Assembly (NCBI GenBank): GCA_027031505.1
Contig: JALVQH010000203.1
Span: 1 to 13,793 of the forward strand
DNA from: Campylobacteraceae bacterium
Lineage (GTDB): Bacteria > Campylobacterota > Campylobacteria > Campylobacterales > Sulfurovaceae
Direction of reading: 5' to 3'
DNA length: 13,793 nt
Made by a program: the position numbers and the translations under genes. Positions within the stretch are counted from its first letter, which is position 1. The number at the start of each line of letters is the position of its first letter. The notes under the pieces were generated by a model that ran no database searches, had not been told where the DNA came from, and saw only the letters and a program-made list of their open reading frames with translations. Shown here one piece after another: positions 8,612 through 13,386 of this stretch.

Positions 8612-8950
8612 TTAGAATTCTATCTGCTCTTTGGAACTCTCAATAAGGCTGACAATGAGTGTATAAGTGTTGGCAATGACTGCCCCGATCACCATCCCGA
8701 TTGCCAACCGATCTGCATGATAAAAATACATGGCAAAAAAAGCAGGTATGAGATGTAGGTCTGCTACAAACGAACCGGCCAGCAACTCGGCTGAGAGAAC
8801 ATTGCGCACTCCGATCTTGAGCAGAGTAGATGCCATATTGATGCTGCCGGCGAGAAAGAGAGCAAAGAGGGTATTTTCATACAAAAACCCCGCACTCGTC
8901 GTCAAACTCATTAACGTGAAGAATACATAAAAGACCTTTCCCCATTTCAT
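8612..8950 (-). CDS. Small integral membrane protein (DUF6394-like)
   Basis: A 112-residue hydrophobic protein with about three to four membrane segments: near residues 5-24 (FYVFFTLMSLTTSAGFLY), 26-44, 52-76 (around LLAGSFVADLHLIPAFFAMY) and 82-104 (LAIGMVIGAVIANTYTLIVS). The MKWGKVFYVFF start and the SAELLAGSFVADLHLIPAF block resemble a conserved Campylobacterota protein that I recall as DUF6394; that label is from memory and not checked. Function unknown. An excellent AAGGAGC lies before the ATG. The TAA stop is eight bases from the patB start. It follows secF across repeat island B, so it may be read from the sec transcript or from its own promoter within 8951-9060. Confidence 0.78.
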   Translation of the reverse strand: MKWGKVFYVFFTLMSLTTSAGFLYENTLFALFLAGSINMASTLLKIGVRNVLSAELLAGSFVADLHLIPAFFAMYFYHADRLAIGMVIGAVIANTYTLIVSLIESSKEQIEF

Positions 8951-8987
8951 CGTGGATGCTCCTTAATTATTTTGGATTAGGTGTCTT

Positions 8988-9005
8988 GGTGTGCAACTGC
9001 ACACC
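8988..9005. repeat. GGTGTGC hairpin, copy 2 (repeat island B)
   Basis: GGTGTGCAACTGCACACC has perfect seven-base arms (8988-8994 and 8999-9005) around AACT. It is the partner of the element at 5963-5980: same length, same GGTGTGCAA start and ACACCC end. It lies 37 bases upstream of the ATG at 8950 on the minus strand. Confidence 0.65.
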
Positions 9006-9069
9006 CTGCGCGATTTCTAATGTTCAACATGCCCCTATCCTGCAAGTGGCAAAATTTATCCGATCTAAA

Positions 9070-9113
9070 GGCAGGGTTTCAACCCTGCACGACGGGACTG
9101 AAGTCCCTGCTCC
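9070..9113 (+). repeat. 44-base double-hairpin repeat, copy 1 (island B)
   Basis: Two adjacent stem-loops: GCAGGGTT/AACCCTGC (9071-9078 with 9081-9088) and GGGACT/AGTCCC (9094-9099 with 9102-9107), ending CTGCTCC. The first GCAGGG can also pair with the final CCCTGC, giving an alternative long fold. The reverse complement of 13340-13383 is the same element with 40 of 44 bases identical. It lies in the 214-base gap between secF and the small membrane protein gene. The arrangement resembles REP-type repeats, but no REP-associated transposase is in the window. Confidence 0.85.
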
Positions 9114-9133
9114 AGATGAGACAACTACCTAAC

Positions 9134-9167
9134 AATTCCTAATTTCTAATTCCTAACTCCTAATTTA
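9134..9167. repeat. 7-base tandem repeats abutting the secF stop (island B)
   Basis: Plus-strand 7-mers AATTCCT, AATTTCT, AATTCCT and AACTCCT, then AATTTA, which contains the complement of the secF TAA stop (9165-9167). It shares unit sequence and position at a stop codon with the array at 6025-6052. It resembles short tandemly repeated heptamers described in cyanobacteria, a comparison only. Confidence 0.7.
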
Positions 9168-10136
9168 CACAGTTCCCTGCTCATACATGGCACGCATCTT
9201 TTCCTTCTCTTTTTCGCGGCGCAGCTTGTCGGCTTCACGTGCGCGAAACCCTTTGACATCGAAGCCGAGCCACATCAGGATCGGTGAGGCGATAAAGATC
9301 GACGAATAGGTACCGACGATCACACCCACCAGCAAGGTGAAGCTGAAACTGTTGATGATCTCTCCACCGAAAAGGTACAGTGTCAGGACAACAAAGAAGG
9401 TGGTCAGCGACGTGAGGGTCGTCCGGGAGAGGGTGCGGGTGATCGATTCATTGATGATCCCGGCCAGATCAGGATTTTTGATCGTACGGATCCCCTCCCG
9501 GATCCGGTCAAAGACGATGATGGTATCATTGAGCGAGTATCCCAGCAGAGTCAGGATGGCCGCAAGCGTGTCGAGGTTGACCTCGATCCCGAAGAGGACA
9601 ATCGCCCCCGATGCGATGCTCACATCGTGCACGAGCGCCAGTACGGATGCAACCGCAAACCGCCACTCGAAACGGAACGACACGTAAACGAGGATCCCGG
9701 CAATGGCAAGGAGCATCGCCATGAGTCCCTTGGTACGGAGTTCATCGCCGATCCTGGGTCCCACCATGTCAACACGGCGCACCTCAAATTTTCCGGTCTC
9801 TTTGAGGAGGGTGCGCACCTCATCACCGACATCGTTGCCGACCACTTTGGAGCTGGTCTTGGTGCGGATGACGATCTCATTGTCGCTGCCGAAGAAGGTA
9901 ACATTGGCGCCTTTGAAGGCGGGACTGGCTTTGAGCGCTCTCCGCACCTTCGTGATGGGGGCTTTGGTGTCATACTTGACCTGGATCAGCGTCCCCCCGG
10001 CAAAGTCGATTCCGTAGTTGAACCCTCTGGTCAGCAGCAATCCCCACGAGAGGAGGACGAGCACCAGTGAGAGGAGACCGAACGTGCGGCTGACCCCCAT
10101 GAAATTGATCGGTTTTCTGTAGTGAAAAAGTTCCAT
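9165..10136 (-). CDS. secF: Protein translocase subunit SecF
   Basis: SecF works with SecD and YajC at the SecYEG channel, using the proton motive force to help export in late stages. The 323-residue protein begins with a first membrane segment (residues about 16-36) and has the signature NYGIDFAGGTLIQVKYD (40-56), a periplasmic P1 domain to about residue 130, then five further membrane segments including LLGYSLNDTIIVFDRIREG, the conserved RND-type motif. A charged tail (READKLRREKEKEKMR) is cytoplasmic. Length is normal. The ATG follows the secD TAA directly (TAAATG), with a GGGGG-containing ribosome site inside the secD end. The stop lies within the heptamer repeats of island B. Confidence 0.96.
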   Translation of the reverse strand: MELFHYRKPINFMGVSRTFGLLSLVLVLLSWGLLLTRGFNYGIDFAGGTLIQVKYDTKAPITKVRRALKASPAFKGANVTFFGSDNEIVIRTKTSSKVVGNDVGDEVRTLLKETGKFEVRRVDMVGPRIGDELRTKGLMAMLLAIAGILVYVSFRFEWRFAVASVLALVHDVSIASGAIVLFGIEVNLDTLAAILTLLGYSLNDTIIVFDRIREGIRTIKNPDLAGIINESITRTLSRTTLTSLTTFFVVLTLYLFGGEIINSFSFTLLVGVIVGTYSSIFIASPILMWLGFDVKGFRAREADKLRREKEKEKMRAMYEQGTV

Positions 10137-11720
10137 TTATTTCACCCCCTCTGTCTGAATGCCGAACCAGCGGCGAAGTTTGTTCTTGTGGATGGAAGGG
10201 AGCAGCATCTGATAGATACCGTGTGTCCCGAGAATCGCTGTAAGCATAGAGGCAAGGATCCCGATACTCATCGTCAGAGCAAATCCCTTGATCGGACCGG
10301 TACCGTAGGCATACAGCACAATCGACGAAATGAGTGTCGTGATGTTGGCATCCCAGATTGCGGTGAAGGCGTTGTCGTAGCCCTCCTCGATCGCTTTGGG
10401 GATCGATTTGCCCGCGTAGAGCAATTCCCGAATCCGTTCGTTGATGATGACGTTGGCATCCACCGCCATCCCCACGGTGAGGACGATCCCCGCCATTCCC
10501 GGCAGGGTCAGGGTCGCGCCAAAGAGCGCCATCACCGACAGGATCAGGAAAAGGTTTCCGATCAACGCAATGTCGGCAATGATGCCGGCATAACCGTAGT
10601 AAAGAATCATAAAGATAACGACGAGGACAAATCCAAGCGCCAGCGCGAGGGTACTGGCCTGAATGCTGTCGGCTCCAAGGCTGGGTCCGACGCTCCGCTT
10701 CTCCATCACATAGACTGGAGCAAGCAGGGCTCCCGAACGGAGGGCAATGGCGACATCGTTGGCTTCGTTGAGGGTAAAGTTCCCCGAGATCTGCCCCCGT
10801 CCACCACCAATCCGCTCCCGGATCACCGGGGCGGAGTAGACTTTGTTGTCCAGCACGATAGCCATCCGCTTCCCGACGCTCTTGCCGGAGAAGTCGCCGA
10901 AGATTCGCGCCCCTTCACCGTTGAGAACGAAGTTGATCACCGGCTGATTGTTGCGGTCGAAGCCCACTTTGGCATCGGTGAGCATCGATCCGTCGAGGAT
11001 CGGGATCTGGCGCAGGAGGTATTTTCGCTTGGAGTCTTTGACATCGGGTAAAATAATATCCCGATATTTTCTGGCTTCATCAGGGCTCATGGTATAGACC
11101 CGAGCTGCACGGTCTTCGTCAACGGCCATCATCTGCAAATGAGCCGTACGGGCGATCAGCTCCCGGATCCGCTGCTCATCAGCTGATGTTTTGATCCCCG
11201 GCACCTCTACGAGGATCTTCTCTTCCCCCTGCTGCGCGACGGTCGGCTCTGCCAGACCAAACTGATCGAGCCGGTTTCGGATCGTATCTACGGCCTGTTT
11301 GATCGCATTCTGTTTGGTGCGCCCGATCTCTTCGGGAGTCAATGCAATTGCAAAGTCTGCACCTTGAGCCTTCGGAACCGTTCCGGTCAACTCTTTTTCA
11401 AGAAGGCTTTTTGCTTTGGGTATATCATCTTCGTCAAGCAGTTTGAAGTGGATAATGTTGTTTTCGATGCGCAGATCATCCATAACCATATCGTTATCAT
11501 CGAGGAGGTACTTGACCGTTCCGGCAATGGCTTTTATCCGGGAGGTGATCGCTTCGTCGCTTTTGACTCCGAGAAGCATATGCAGCCCCCCCTGGAGGTC
11601 GAGCCCCAGCGTGATCTTCCTGCCGCTTTCGCTCTGCACAAGCGACGGGATCGAAAAGACCACTCCGAAGATCAACGCAAAAATGAAAATCACCACCCGG
11701 TAATTCAATCGGCTTAACAT
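10137..11720 (-). CDS. secD: Protein translocase subunit SecD
   Basis: SecD is the larger partner of SecF in the RND-like export-assisting complex of the inner membrane. The 527-residue protein has a first membrane segment at about 8-28, the motif TLGLDLQGGLHMLLGV (37-52), a large periplasmic region with P1 base and head domains (about 55-350; note TDAKVGFDRNNQPVINFVL), and five C-terminal membrane segments, including GMAGIVLTVGMAVDANVIINERIREL, which carries the conserved aspartate/asparagine pair of the proton path. AAGGAA upstream of the ATG is the likely ribosome site. It lies 12 bases after yajC and its stop touches the secF start. A plus-strand open frame at 10122-11051 is a shadow. Confidence 0.97.
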   Translation of the reverse strand: MLSRLNYRVVIFIFALIFGVVFSIPSLVQSESGRKITLGLDLQGGLHMLLGVKSDEAITSRIKAIAGTVKYLLDDNDMVMDDLRIENNIIHFKLLDEDDIPKAKSLLEKELTGTVPKAQGADFAIALTPEEIGRTKQNAIKQAVDTIRNRLDQFGLAEPTVAQQGEEKILVEVPGIKTSADEQRIRELIARTAHLQMMAVDEDRAARVYTMSPDEARKYRDIILPDVKDSKRKYLLRQIPILDGSMLTDAKVGFDRNNQPVINFVLNGEGARIFGDFSGKSVGKRMAIVLDNKVYSAPVIRERIGGGRGQISGNFTLNEANDVAIALRSGALLAPVYVMEKRSVGPSLGADSIQASTLALALGFVLVVIFMILYYGYAGIIADIALIGNLFLILSVMALFGATLTLPGMAGIVLTVGMAVDANVIINERIRELLYAGKSIPKAIEEGYDNAFTAIWDANITTLISSIVLYAYGTGPIKGFALTMSIGILASMLTAILGTHGIYQMLLPSIHKNKLRRWFGIQTEGVK

Positions 11721-11732
11721 CTCCGGGCTTCC

Positions 11733-11996
11733 TTATGCATCGAGTTTGCGTGCGACATAGGCACGGTCAAGTTTGGCAACAGCACCGTCACTCAGTTTGA
11801 TTTTGATAAAATCCTCTTCGACCTTGACGATTTCTACTATCAAGCCGCCGCTGGTGACGATCTTGTCCCCTTTGGTCAACGATTCAAGCATCGCTTTGTG
11901 CGCTTTTTGCTGCTTCTGCTGTGGACGAATGATCAGAAAATAAAAGACCGCAAACAGCAGAATCAATGGTAAAAGTTGAGCCATCCCTTGTGACAT
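11733..11996 (-). CDS. yajC: Preprotein translocase subunit YajC
   Basis: An 87-residue single-pass membrane protein: membrane segment LLPLILLFAVFYFLIIRP at about 8-25, the family's RPQQKQQKAH motif just after it, then a cytoplasmic beta-rich domain with LTKGDKIVTSGGLIVEI, the usual YajC core. It associates with SecD and SecF. Its start is set by AAAGGA in the shared palindrome at 11997-12006, six bases before the ATG. First gene of the minus-strand run; only 14 bases separate it from the divergent lnt. Confidence 0.95.
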   Translation of the reverse strand: MSQGMAQLLPLILLFAVFYFLIIRPQQKQQKAHKAMLESLTKGDKIVTSGGLIVEIVKVEEDFIKIKLSDGAVAKLDRAYVARKLDA

Positions 11997-12006
11997 AGGA
12001 TATCCT
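11997..12006. promoter_or_regulatory. Palindrome carrying ribosome sites of both divergent genes yajC and lnt
   Basis: AGGATATCCT is a perfect 10-base palindrome in the 14-base gap between the yajC and lnt starts. Read leftward it gives AAAGGA, six bases before the yajC ATG; read rightward it gives AGGA, ten bases before the lnt ATG. The promoters for both genes must therefore lie inside the coding sequence of the opposite gene. Confidence 0.65.
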
Positions 12007-12010
12007 TTGT

Positions 12011-13312
12011 ATGAAAGTTAGCAAACATTTTACCACTTCAGCTCTAACAGCAGGCTTGTTCATCGCTCTGACCGGCTCGGTGTGGCTCTATGCCGCATGG
12101 ATGAAATGGGATTTCCCGATGCTGACGACCTTTGCCGGGCTCCTTTTTTTAACCTTCCTTCTTGGCGCGAAGCGACCGACGTGGTTCTGGATAGGTTTTT
12201 TTATCGGAGTGTTCTGGTTTGGGTGGATCGGGGTGAGTTTCTATTACTACCATCTTGCCTGGCTTATCCCGGTTGCAATCCTCGGTGTTGCCCTTATATA
12301 CGGTTTCATTTTCTATGCAATCGCATACCTCTCTGAAAAAATCCCCCATTCAGTCATAAGTTTTGCGGAGAAAAACCAACCAAAACCATTCACTATTCAC
12401 TATTCACTATTCACTCTGACACTCAGAAGCTTCATGCTTCTGAGTGTCAGCTATCTCCACCCCTTCGGCTTTGACTGGTTCAAGCCCGAATTGGTCTTCG
12501 TCCACAGTTATCTCGGCGTCGCGAAGTGGCAATTCGCCCTCATCCTCACCGCCCTCATCCTCGCCCTCTGGCGCAGAAAACCCCTGTTTCTGCTGCTGGC
12601 GATGCTTGCGTACTCCCCCGTCGAAGTGGAGCGCCTCCCGACCGATCCCACCCATACCTTCAAACTCATCACCACCCACACGACGATCGCCGACAAATGG
12701 AACCCGGAGAAAATCCCCAAACATATCGATCGTGCTCTGCACGCAATCGACCGGGCGATCGCGGAGGGATACCCGGCGGTGATCCTCCCCGAGTCGATCT
12801 TCCCCTTCTTCCTCAACCGCCGATCCGATATCTTCGGAGCCCTCATAGCCCGCTCACAGCAGATCGACATCATCATCGGCGCCCTCTACCTCGACGGTAC
12901 CATCCACCGCAACGCCACCTATCACTTTCACCGGGGGCGCTACACCGTCGCCGACAAAGTGGTACTTGTCCCCTTTGGCGAAGCCAATCCTCTGCCCGAA
13001 TTTGCCAGCCGGTGGGTCAATCGGATCTTTTTTGACGGCGCCATCGACTATACTGCTTCCGCCCAACCTACCGATTGGGATATCCGGGGACAACGCTACC
13101 GAAACGCCATCTGCTACGAGGCCACCAGCGAGACCCTCTACGCCGACCGCCCCGGGCGCATGATCGTCACGAGCAACAATGCCTGGTTCGTCCCCTCGAT
13201 CGAACCGACATTCCAGCGCCTCCTGCTATCATATTATGTTCGCAAATACGGCACGACGATCTACCACGCGACTAACATGAGCCCGGCGTATGTTCTGCGA
13301 CGGAAGCATTGA
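12011..13312 (+). CDS. lnt: Apolipoprotein N-acyltransferase Lnt
   Basis: Lnt adds the third acyl chain to the N-terminal cysteine of lipoproteins in the inner membrane. The 433-residue protein has N-terminal membrane segments (about 14-30, 36-52, 58-78, 82-106, 140-152, 175-198) and a nitrilase-type periplasmic domain with the catalytic triad E261 (VILPESIFPFF), K316 (VADKVVLVPFGEANP) and C368 (NAICYEA), followed by SNNAWF and YGTTIYHATNMSP. The SYLHPFGFDWFKPEL block is the form seen in Campylobacterota. Residues about 126-148 are unusual: they are encoded by four tandem 7-mers and a perfect inverted repeat (12387-12450), an apparent in-frame insertion between membrane segments. The catalytic residues are intact, so the gene is probably functional. 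Divergence from yajC matches the Campylobacter arrangement. Confidence 0.93.
   Translation: MKVSKHFTTSALTAGLFIALTGSVWLYAAWMKWDFPMLTTFAGLLFLTFLLGAKRPTWFWIGFFIGVFWFGWIGVSFYYYHLAWLIPVAILGVALIYGFIFYAIAYLSEKIPHSVISFAEKNQPKPFTIHYSLFTLTLRSFMLLSVSYLHPFGFDWFKPELVFVHSYLGVAKWQFALILTALILALWRRKPLFLLLAMLAYSPVEVERLPTDPTHTFKLITTHTTIADKWNPEKIPKHIDRALHAIDRAIAEGYPAVILPESIFPFFLNRRSDIFGALIARSQQIDIIIGALYLDGTIHRNATYHFHRGRYTVADKVVLVPFGEANPLPEFASRWVNRIFFDGAIDYTASAQPTDWDIRGQRYRNAICYEATSETLYADRPGRMIVTSNNAWFVPSIEPTFQRLLLSYYVRKYGTTIYHATNMSPAYVLRRKH
12387..12414 (+). repeat. Four 7-base tandem repeats inside lnt
   Basis: CATTCAC followed by three exact TATTCAC units, coding for about PFTIHYSLFT. Because 7 is not a multiple of 3, unit number changes would shift the reading frame. 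The array directly abuts the inverted repeat at 12416. Confidence 0.85.
12416..12450. repeat. Perfect 15-base inverted repeat inside lnt
   Basis: CTGACACTCAGAAGC (12416-12430) and GCTTCTGAGTGTCAG (12436-12450) are exact reverse complements around TTCAT. It codes in frame for LTLRSFMLLSVS (residues 136-147). There is no T-run after it, so it does not look like a terminator. Confidence 0.9.
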
Positions 13313-13314
13313 TG

Positions 13315-13323
13315 TGCTACAAT
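13315..13323 (+). promoter_or_regulatory. Possible extended -10 promoter element before the small gene/yidD
   Basis: TGCTACAAT fits the extended -10 form TGnTATAAT with one change. It lies just after the lnt stop, so transcription would start near 13330 and include the double-hairpin repeat (13340-13386) in the leader of the gene at 13405. Confidence 0.4.
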
Positions 13324-13339
13324 GAGATATCCTACATCA

Positions 13340-13386
13340 GGAGCAGGGACTTTAGTCCCGTCATGCAGGGCTGAAGCCCTGCCTCC
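13340..13386 (-). repeat. Double-hairpin repeat, copy 2 (inverted relative to copy 1)
   Basis: On the minus strand this is the same element as 9070-9113: stems GCAGGGCT/AGCCCTGC and GGGACT/AGTCCC, with four base differences over 44. Two of these form a compensatory pair in the first stem (T-A to C-G), one is in the second loop and one in the linker. It fills most of the 92-base gap between lnt and the small gene, ending 18 bases before its ATG. Confidence 0.85.

Follow-up and report, generated by a model that had tools for sequence, protein, structure and literature searches.

The DNA analysed here, hereafter called the window, is a stretch of 13,793 nucleotides from contig 203 (JALVQH010000203.1) of GCA_027031505.1, a metagenome-assembled genome (MAG) of a Campylobacteraceae bacterium (1.67 Mb, 373 contigs, 95.8% complete) that we refer to as G000. 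It carries the same short double hairpin twice, in opposite orientations and each time in a gap between genes. The two sites are very probably copies of a REP doublet forming hairpins (REPIN), i.e. two inverted repetitive extragenic palindromic (REP) sequences, here REP-A and REP-B, with their tags pointing outward and 5 nt between them, which together make up a 47-bp non-autonomous mobile element, presumably copied by a REP-associated tyrosine transposase (RAYT) encoded in trans. The copies, their halves and the neighbouring genes are the following.

9067-9113, minus strand: REPIN copy 1 (47 bp; read on this strand, REP-A comes first), located between secF and the next gene on its 3' side
9094-9113, minus strand: REP-A of copy 1, tag GGAG followed by CA and the stem GGGACT/AGTCCC (9094-9099 with 9102-9107), loop TC in the minus-strand reading
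9067-9088, plus strand: REP-B of copy 1, decayed tag and stem GCAGGGTT/AACCCTGC (9071-9078 with 9081-9088), loop TC
13340-13386, plus strand: REPIN copy 2 (47 bp), 27 nt after the stop codon of the lnt-like gene, in the gap on its 3' side
13340-13359, plus strand: REP-A of copy 2, tag GGAG followed by CA and the stem GGGACT/AGTCCC (13346-13351 with 13354-13359), loop TT
13365-13386, minus strand: REP-B of copy 2, tag GGAG (13383-13386) and stem GCAGGGCT/AGCCCTGC (13365-13372 with 13375-13382), loop TC
9165-10136, minus strand: secF, neighbour outside the element (PF02355, E 3.5e-69; PF07549)
12011-13312, plus strand: apolipoprotein N-acyltransferase-like (lnt-like) gene, neighbour outside the element

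The lnt-like gene, which had no Pfam match at 1e-3, bears a name that we assume. An inverted-pair search of the window recovered the repeat as the best ungapped pair (9069-9118 with 13335-13384; 50 nt, 90% complementary), the runner-up being 26 nt long, and the sequence GGAGCAGGGACTTNAGTCCC at up to 3 mismatches occurred twice in the window, compared to a mean of 0.01 in shuffled sequences (n=200), none of which held two. The original prediction had described a 44-base element at 9070-9113 that recurs inverted at 13340-13386 with four differences over the 44 bases compared, and these were found again: two form a compensatory T-A/C-G pair in the hairpin of GCAGGG, a third lies in the loop of the other hairpin and the fourth in the linker. 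The full unit is 47 bp rather than 44 (9067-9113 and 13340-13386), and the two differences that the longer comparison adds fall within the outer tag of copy 1. Since AAAG (9067-9070, plus strand) stands there in place of the GGAG that copy 2 has on the minus strand, one end of copy 1 is decayed. The tagged REP-A unit can be written GGAG-CA-GGGACTTYAGTCCCG. REP-B of copy 2 matches the REP-B pattern used below exactly, and REP-B of copy 1, with its decayed tag, is not among the matches of that pattern. The proximity to envelope genes, judged from these two copies, may be incidental, a link to such genes being unsupported.

In G000 as a whole, the element was found in many copies, as expected from the REP reading of the original prediction, and not merely in the two of the window. 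The hairpin GGGACTNNAGTCCC at up to 2 mismatches occurred at 190 places versus 24 for the reversed control, the tagged unit GGAGNAGGGACTTNAGTCCC at up to 2 mismatches at 103 sites versus 0 for the reversed pattern, and the partner REP-B, GGAGGCAGGGCTTCAGCCCTGC, at up to 3 mismatches at 24 sites versus 0 for its reversed control. Judged by simple calls of open reading frames (ORFs) of at least 100 aa, which span 81% of the bases, 26 of 93 units lay inside an ORF, so that the sequence is both high in copy number and mostly extragenic, as REPs are. When GGAGCAGGGACTTYAGTCCC was searched at 1 mismatch in 60 genomes, G000 included, nine genomes had matches: G000 with 49, its three congeners (G001 to G003) with counts of 52, 42 and 93, and five others with 1 to 5 each; within this sample, high REP abundance is thus confined to the genus. 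Among the matches listed in a contig scan, the 21-mer of the REP also occurred in Sulfurovum and other Campylobacterota and in MAGs of unrelated groups, namely Candidatus Schekmanbacteria JACRJN (L119, L151, L154, L155, L157, L166, L216), where the copies lie partly within larger inverted repeats, Lysobacterales (L123) and Saprospiraceae (L179). A related RAYT was not found in the examined stretches around the Schekmanbacteria, Lysobacterales and Saprospiraceae REPs, and transfer, binning error and convergence are all possible explanations for their presence there.

The arrangement of the units was assessed in 71 stretches of G000 (after removal of 5 overlapping ones), all of which except the window had been chosen for holding a match, with a finder that required a GG[AG]G tag and an apex of the form T-TY-A. 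It returned 115 tagged units, 70 with GGAG and 45 with GGGG; the subtypes have a common apex and unlike stems. Among the 30 neighbouring pairs at most 70 nt apart, the tags pointed outward in 26, inward in one and in tandem in three, so that inverted REPs dominate close pairs, as in REPINs. A doublet search that tolerated few substitutions in hairpin 1 and in the basal part of hairpin 2, with eight inner positions of the latter unconstrained, gave 51 doublets; the 42 distinct ones of exactly 47 bp (20 from G000, 22 from the three congeners) were aligned and the 9 of other lengths left out. The consensus, TCA|GGAGCAGGGACTTCAGTCCCGTnATGCAGGGCTGAAGCCCTGCCTCC|A, has the ends TCA|GGAG...CTCC|A, i.e. 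the copies have conserved boundaries. Stem 1 and its tag carry 1.8-1.9 bits of information at most positions, the 3' tag 1.0-1.6 bits and the 5' TCA about 1.0 bit for each base. Outside the element, the 5' flank falls below 0.5 bit from the fourth base outward, the 3' flank reaches up to 0.7 bit within five bases, and from ten bases out the information is about 0.2 bit or less.

In the same alignment, 95.9% of the cells of the two-hairpin structure are paired compared to 93.6% in shuffles, a palindrome thus lying a few nucleotides downstream of the tag as in REPs; 22 cells are changed on both sides compared to 8.5, and the covariation score is 0.126 compared to 0.079, none of 500 shuffles reaching any of these three values. 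Less unusual are the counts of pairs changed on both sides (3; reached by 53 of 500 shuffles) and of pair types (12; 22 of 500). The covariation predicted for an element under selection or copying as a structure is therefore present, and it resides in hairpin 2, at columns 31-38 (G-C 20, A-U 15) and 32-37 (C-G 31, U-A 5, G-C 1), which are positions left free by the search pattern; the shuffles ignore relatedness among the copies. The alternative pairing of GCAGGG with CCCTGC that had been proposed fared less well: it is possible, being the minimum-energy fold of the plus strand of copy 2 (one of four strands), but does not stand clearly above shuffles in the alignment. In this long hairpin of the whole element, 91.7% of cells are paired, and the values of its five measures are attained by 29 to 178 of 500 shuffles.

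Comparison of orthologous gaps among relatives revealed differences in presence and absence at both window sites. G000 and G002 have the element in the gap 3' of secF, their copies showing a compensatory change from T-A to G-C; the gap is without it in G006, G007, G008 and G041, where it leads to the same next gene. The gap 3' of the lnt-like gene holds it in G000 and G003 and lacks it in G002, where the sequence is too diverged for a footprint to be read; in G001, the contig ends in this gap. Given this pattern, each window copy is common to one congener and not universal. Elsewhere, one REP doublet substitutes for another between loci L016 and L208, and a doublet is partly lost between L239 and L210.

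The original prediction had also suggested looking for a Y1 transposase flanked by the element; such a gene exists in G002 and in Sulfurovum sp. NORP77, and none was found in the window's own genome. The G002 RAYT has 175 aa (PF01797, E 3.3e-14, 53.5 bits versus a cut-off of 23) and the REP of the window on both sides; the NORP77 RAYT is 65% identical to it over 170 aa and is flanked by the same REP. Used as a query at 1e-5, the G002 RAYT had matches in 91 of 150 genomes of the family. Near full-length close relatives were found at 18 loci, i.e. the query's own and 17 others with 43-55% identity, and at 13 of the 18, one or more CTTYAG hairpins lie at most 420 bp away. Such hairpins number 41 in nominally 15.1 kb near RAYT genes versus 8 in 35.6 kb farther away, counts that are uncorrected for the greater share of gaps in the near stretches. 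The stems of the RAYT-flanking hairpins mostly differ (CATGGACT, GCGACT, ATGAGACT, GTGACACT and others), and a hairpin search with the apex left free gave CTNNAG hairpins at six loci (L087, L089, L091, L092, L094, L095). Matches of the RAYT to PDB sequences were weak throughout, the best being TnpArep (4er8, E 0.11). In two congeners, the RAYT loci L068 (G001, contig C182) and L071 (G003, contig C302) are accompanied by a different REP type, GGAAGTG-GAGACTTCAGTCCCACCC with its variants, in several copies spaced by about 60-100 bp.

G000 has two PF01797 genes, L001 on contig C126 and L002 on contig C208, and its best match to the G002 RAYT (3.6e-10) is a subclass-2.1-like gene of another kind. 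We rejected L001 and L002 as the cognate enzyme: they have NHYH, YIEQNP/YIELNP and a long C-terminal part, lie near GGGGTCAGG repeats and are not flanked by the element of the window, although L002 ends at a contig edge and its flank is seen on one side only. They represent a second, separate, TIRYT-like Y1 system in G000.

At a gene junction common to G000 and G002, G002 (L067, contig C92) has a REP-RAYT-REP block, and G000 (contig C225, L221:900-1060) has a single orthologous REP and no RAYT; the flanks are 84% identical over 1,053 bases upstream and 74% over 149 bases downstream. The genes at the junction are those that we take to be lutB and lutC. The direction of the change, loss or gain, was not polarised by G003 (no match) or G001 (23 bases only). 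Because G000 has more than 100 REPs and no RAYT, we favour loss of the RAYT in the lineage of the window. Loss of RAYTs is discussed along the same lines in PMC3686654.

REPs are defined in PMC3686654 and PMC6006769 by the 5' tetranucleotide GT[AG]G. Of the 42 aligned copies, which were collected by a pattern favouring GG[AG]G, 41 have GGAG as the first four bases of REP-A, 8 nt ahead of the loop, and one has GGAA there; REP-B starts with GGAG in 30. Among 41 RAYT-flanking units, for which no tag was imposed, the bases at the same distance are GGAG in 16, GGGG in 7, GGAA in 6, GAAG in 5, GGAT in 3 and four other tetranucleotides once each. GGAG at a fixed distance is thus the constant feature. 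In the variant GGAGTAGGG, a GTAG overlaps the foot of the stem; this is the case for 6 of the 42 copies and, next to the G002 RAYT, for 3 of the 4 units counted. A GT[AG]G falls within the 16 nt preceding the loop in 8 of the 41 RAYT-flanking units, and an overlapping GTAG may have a role in some units. Since several Pseudomonas REPs read GTAGGAGC (PMC2817692, Table 1), a GGAG next to a stem has precedents; the new point is the missing GT before it. A GGAG-tagged REP was not found in the literature searched, nor by word in PMC6006769, PMC3733652 and PMC8266576, as far as their text goes, leaving aside figures, supplements and subscription journals. The literal definition therefore makes the element no canonical REP, and its arrangement and RAYT association make it REP-like in its working.

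Taken together, copy number, covariation in hairpin 2, shared ends, a RAYT flanked by the REP in a congener and in NORP77, and presence or absence in orthologous gaps bear out the REP/BIME reading, and neither of the two outcomes that the original prediction had given as its refutation occurred. As judged from sequence comparison, the REP, consisting of a 5' GGAG tag and a short hairpin with a CTTYAG apex, would be recognised on single-stranded DNA by a Y1 HuH transposase, the RAYT, encoded elsewhere in trans, which would cut the single strand and paste new copies into intergenic gaps, preferably where TCA lies 5' of the tag. The RAYT is the probable copying enzyme, and both window copies are most likely passive, slowly decaying non-autonomous elements.

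Several observations weigh against this account. No close RAYT was found in G000, of which about 4% may be missing from the MAG; the constant tag is GGAG/GGGG and not the defining GT[AG]G. Of the 18 close-RAYT loci, 5 lack a CTTYAG hairpin in the 420 bp around the gene, and the GGGACT core is common to two of the others, L093 and L094; REP and RAYT thus do not strictly go together. The NCBIfam RAYT model NF047646 (cut-off 80) gives 78.6 bits for the G002 and 69.4 for the NORP77 protein, and 71 and 74 bits for the two other Y1 proteins of G000; since these scores overlap, the model does not separate these RAYTs from other Y1 proteins. Hairpin 1 hardly varies among the aligned copies, partly since the search pattern fixed it. 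The secF copy of G002 has one G-T pair in stem 1, the lnt-gap copy of G003 has two mismatches in stem 2, and a clean empty site of the 47-bp REPIN was not found among the loci compared.

The same REPs also occur in a longer element with the terminal inverted repeat (TIR) GAG[AG]CTGTGAAAGAAC, which is 131 bp long in 11 of 14 copies, 7 of the 14 being in G000 (L231:930-1092, i.e. contig C278 at about 8830-8990, and L025, L036, L229, L234, L238, L124, L142, L162, L190, L204, L206, L214 and L257 across all genomes). It often sits at the apex of variable outer palindromes. At L310/L311 (G000, contig C167:59-1563), two of its ends lie 1.5 kb apart with ordinary genes between them, as if by recombination of two copies, and inspection by eye of the ORFs of this pair, as a candidate autonomous parent, revealed no transposase.

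The REPs might have spread mainly as cargo of this TIR element, whose enzyme could, as a guess, be a DDE transposase, and not by a RAYT. Its ends are found 19 times in G000 versus 0 for the control, 13 of the 14 copies (L204 weakly) enclose a wide-spaced pair of REP-like hairpins, L257 having the same ends and another interior, and an identical 8-nt direct repeat lies just outside three of them (L124, L231, L257), the others having none or a near-identical one; in one relative, the matching site is an uninterrupted palindrome. The flank consensus of the 42 47-bp copies, however, is without such a TIR, the 19 ends are far fewer than the 103 REP sites, and the absence of a transposase from the one long TIR pair also argues against it. 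We consider this explanation unlikely, and the TIR element may rather be a second vehicle for the same REPs.

Still less probable is that the element acts in the transcript, as a structured RNA or at the 3' end of an mRNA (terminator, stabiliser or riboswitch-like), and is kept for that function. Each window copy does follow, on the 3' side, a gene that runs in its own direction, REP-A being the half closest to the stop codon; all four strands of the two copies fold better as single strands than their shuffles (z -2.7 to -3.3), and REPs have been hypothesised to act in transcription termination and mRNA stabilisation (PMC3733652). Against this, there is no terminator-like site at either copy and no Rfam match in the window at the gathering score, and the REPINs with both neighbours called, 19 of 26, show no preferred orientation (9 ++, 8 --, 1 +-, 1 -+), which makes a conserved RNA role unlikely; each copy is also missing from the same gap in some relatives. 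The mobile structured RNA offered as a second option by the original prediction was consequently not borne out. Chance or gene-conversion copies of a local palindrome, to which two copies in one window, taken alone, could be ascribed as a local duplication, can be set aside as extremely improbable in view of 103 sites versus 0 for the control, shared ends and the occurrence of this sequence on the flanks of RAYT genes in two genera.

Within the REPIN reading, we tentatively propose, at somewhat less than even chances, that a RAYT clade of this Campylobacterota family replaced GTAG by GGAG/GGGG as the guide tag of its REPs, with accompanying changes at the guide-reading positions of E. coli TnpAREP, while the CTTYAG apex was kept 8 nt away and the stem drifted, and that capture of the same REPs in the 131-bp inverted-repeat element gave them two ways to spread and persistence after loss of the RAYT. 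E. coli TnpAREP tolerates no change in GTAG, and a tag change shifted the cut site of a group 3 enzyme (PMC8266576). In a weak pairwise alignment (E 0.11), E. coli Q95 and H101 correspond to E/S/A and K/R at 14 of 18 RAYT loci, the other 4 not matching the motif searched for. Since that motif demanded W, D or E at 100 and R at 104, the residues at 100 and 104 are not evidence. Tag and guide-reading residues may have changed together. The GTAG that overlaps the stem foot in most of the units counted beside the G002 RAYT makes the proposal somewhat less likely.

These results matter in three respects. The survey in PMC6006769 searched for the GT[AG]G tag, and GGAG-tagged populations can be missed in this way. 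Related RAYTs with a GG-tag at a fixed distance and mostly different stems constitute a natural experiment on substrate reading and cut-site choice. In addition, a REPIN-rich genome without the RAYT that its sister has at a shared locus offers a test of REPIN decay after RAYT loss.

Compared to known systems, the element resembles the Pseudomonas GI-GIII REPINs with their cognate RAYTs (PMC3116915) in its inverted REPs, conserved ends, compensatory changes, mostly extragenic location, high copy number and a RAYT in a close relative, but differs in the GGAG/GGGG tag instead of GT[AG]G, the length of 47 bp with a 5-nt linker, the unlike stems (GGGACT versus GCAGGG) and a cognate RAYT not found in G000. 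With the E. coli BIMEs (bacterial interspersed mosaic elements) and the TnpAREP REPtron, including the Y and Z REPs (PMC6006769, PMC8266576), it shares unlike REP subtypes inverted around one HuH Y1 gene; here, however, the stems are short and perfect with a 2-nt loop at the CTTYAG apex and not bulged, and the enzyme is of the MPNH[VI]H type. The CGTC-tagged repeats of PMC3733652, described there as without transposase association, do not fit, the present tag being GGAG/GGGG and the repeats RAYT-flanked in relatives. The TIRYT or TnpA-Y1 subclass 2.1 (PMC3733652, PMC6006769) resembles L001 and L002, with NHYH, YIEQNP/YIELNP, a long C-terminal part and GGGGTCAGG repeats fitting GGGGWSAS, but the element of the window does not flank these genes and they are not its cognate enzyme. 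Several of the RAYTs fit best, by their HuH and Y motifs, into TnpA-Y1 subclass 2.4 (NH[IFV]H, YIxNNP in Table 1 of PMC6006769), with NH[VI]H and YIKNNP and hairpins around most genes, although several others have YIKYNA or YIKFNA instead of NNP and GT[AG]G is the tag of the REPs published for this subclass. The element is thus of a known kind, REP/REPIN, and unusual in its tag GGAG, which is its departure from published REPs.

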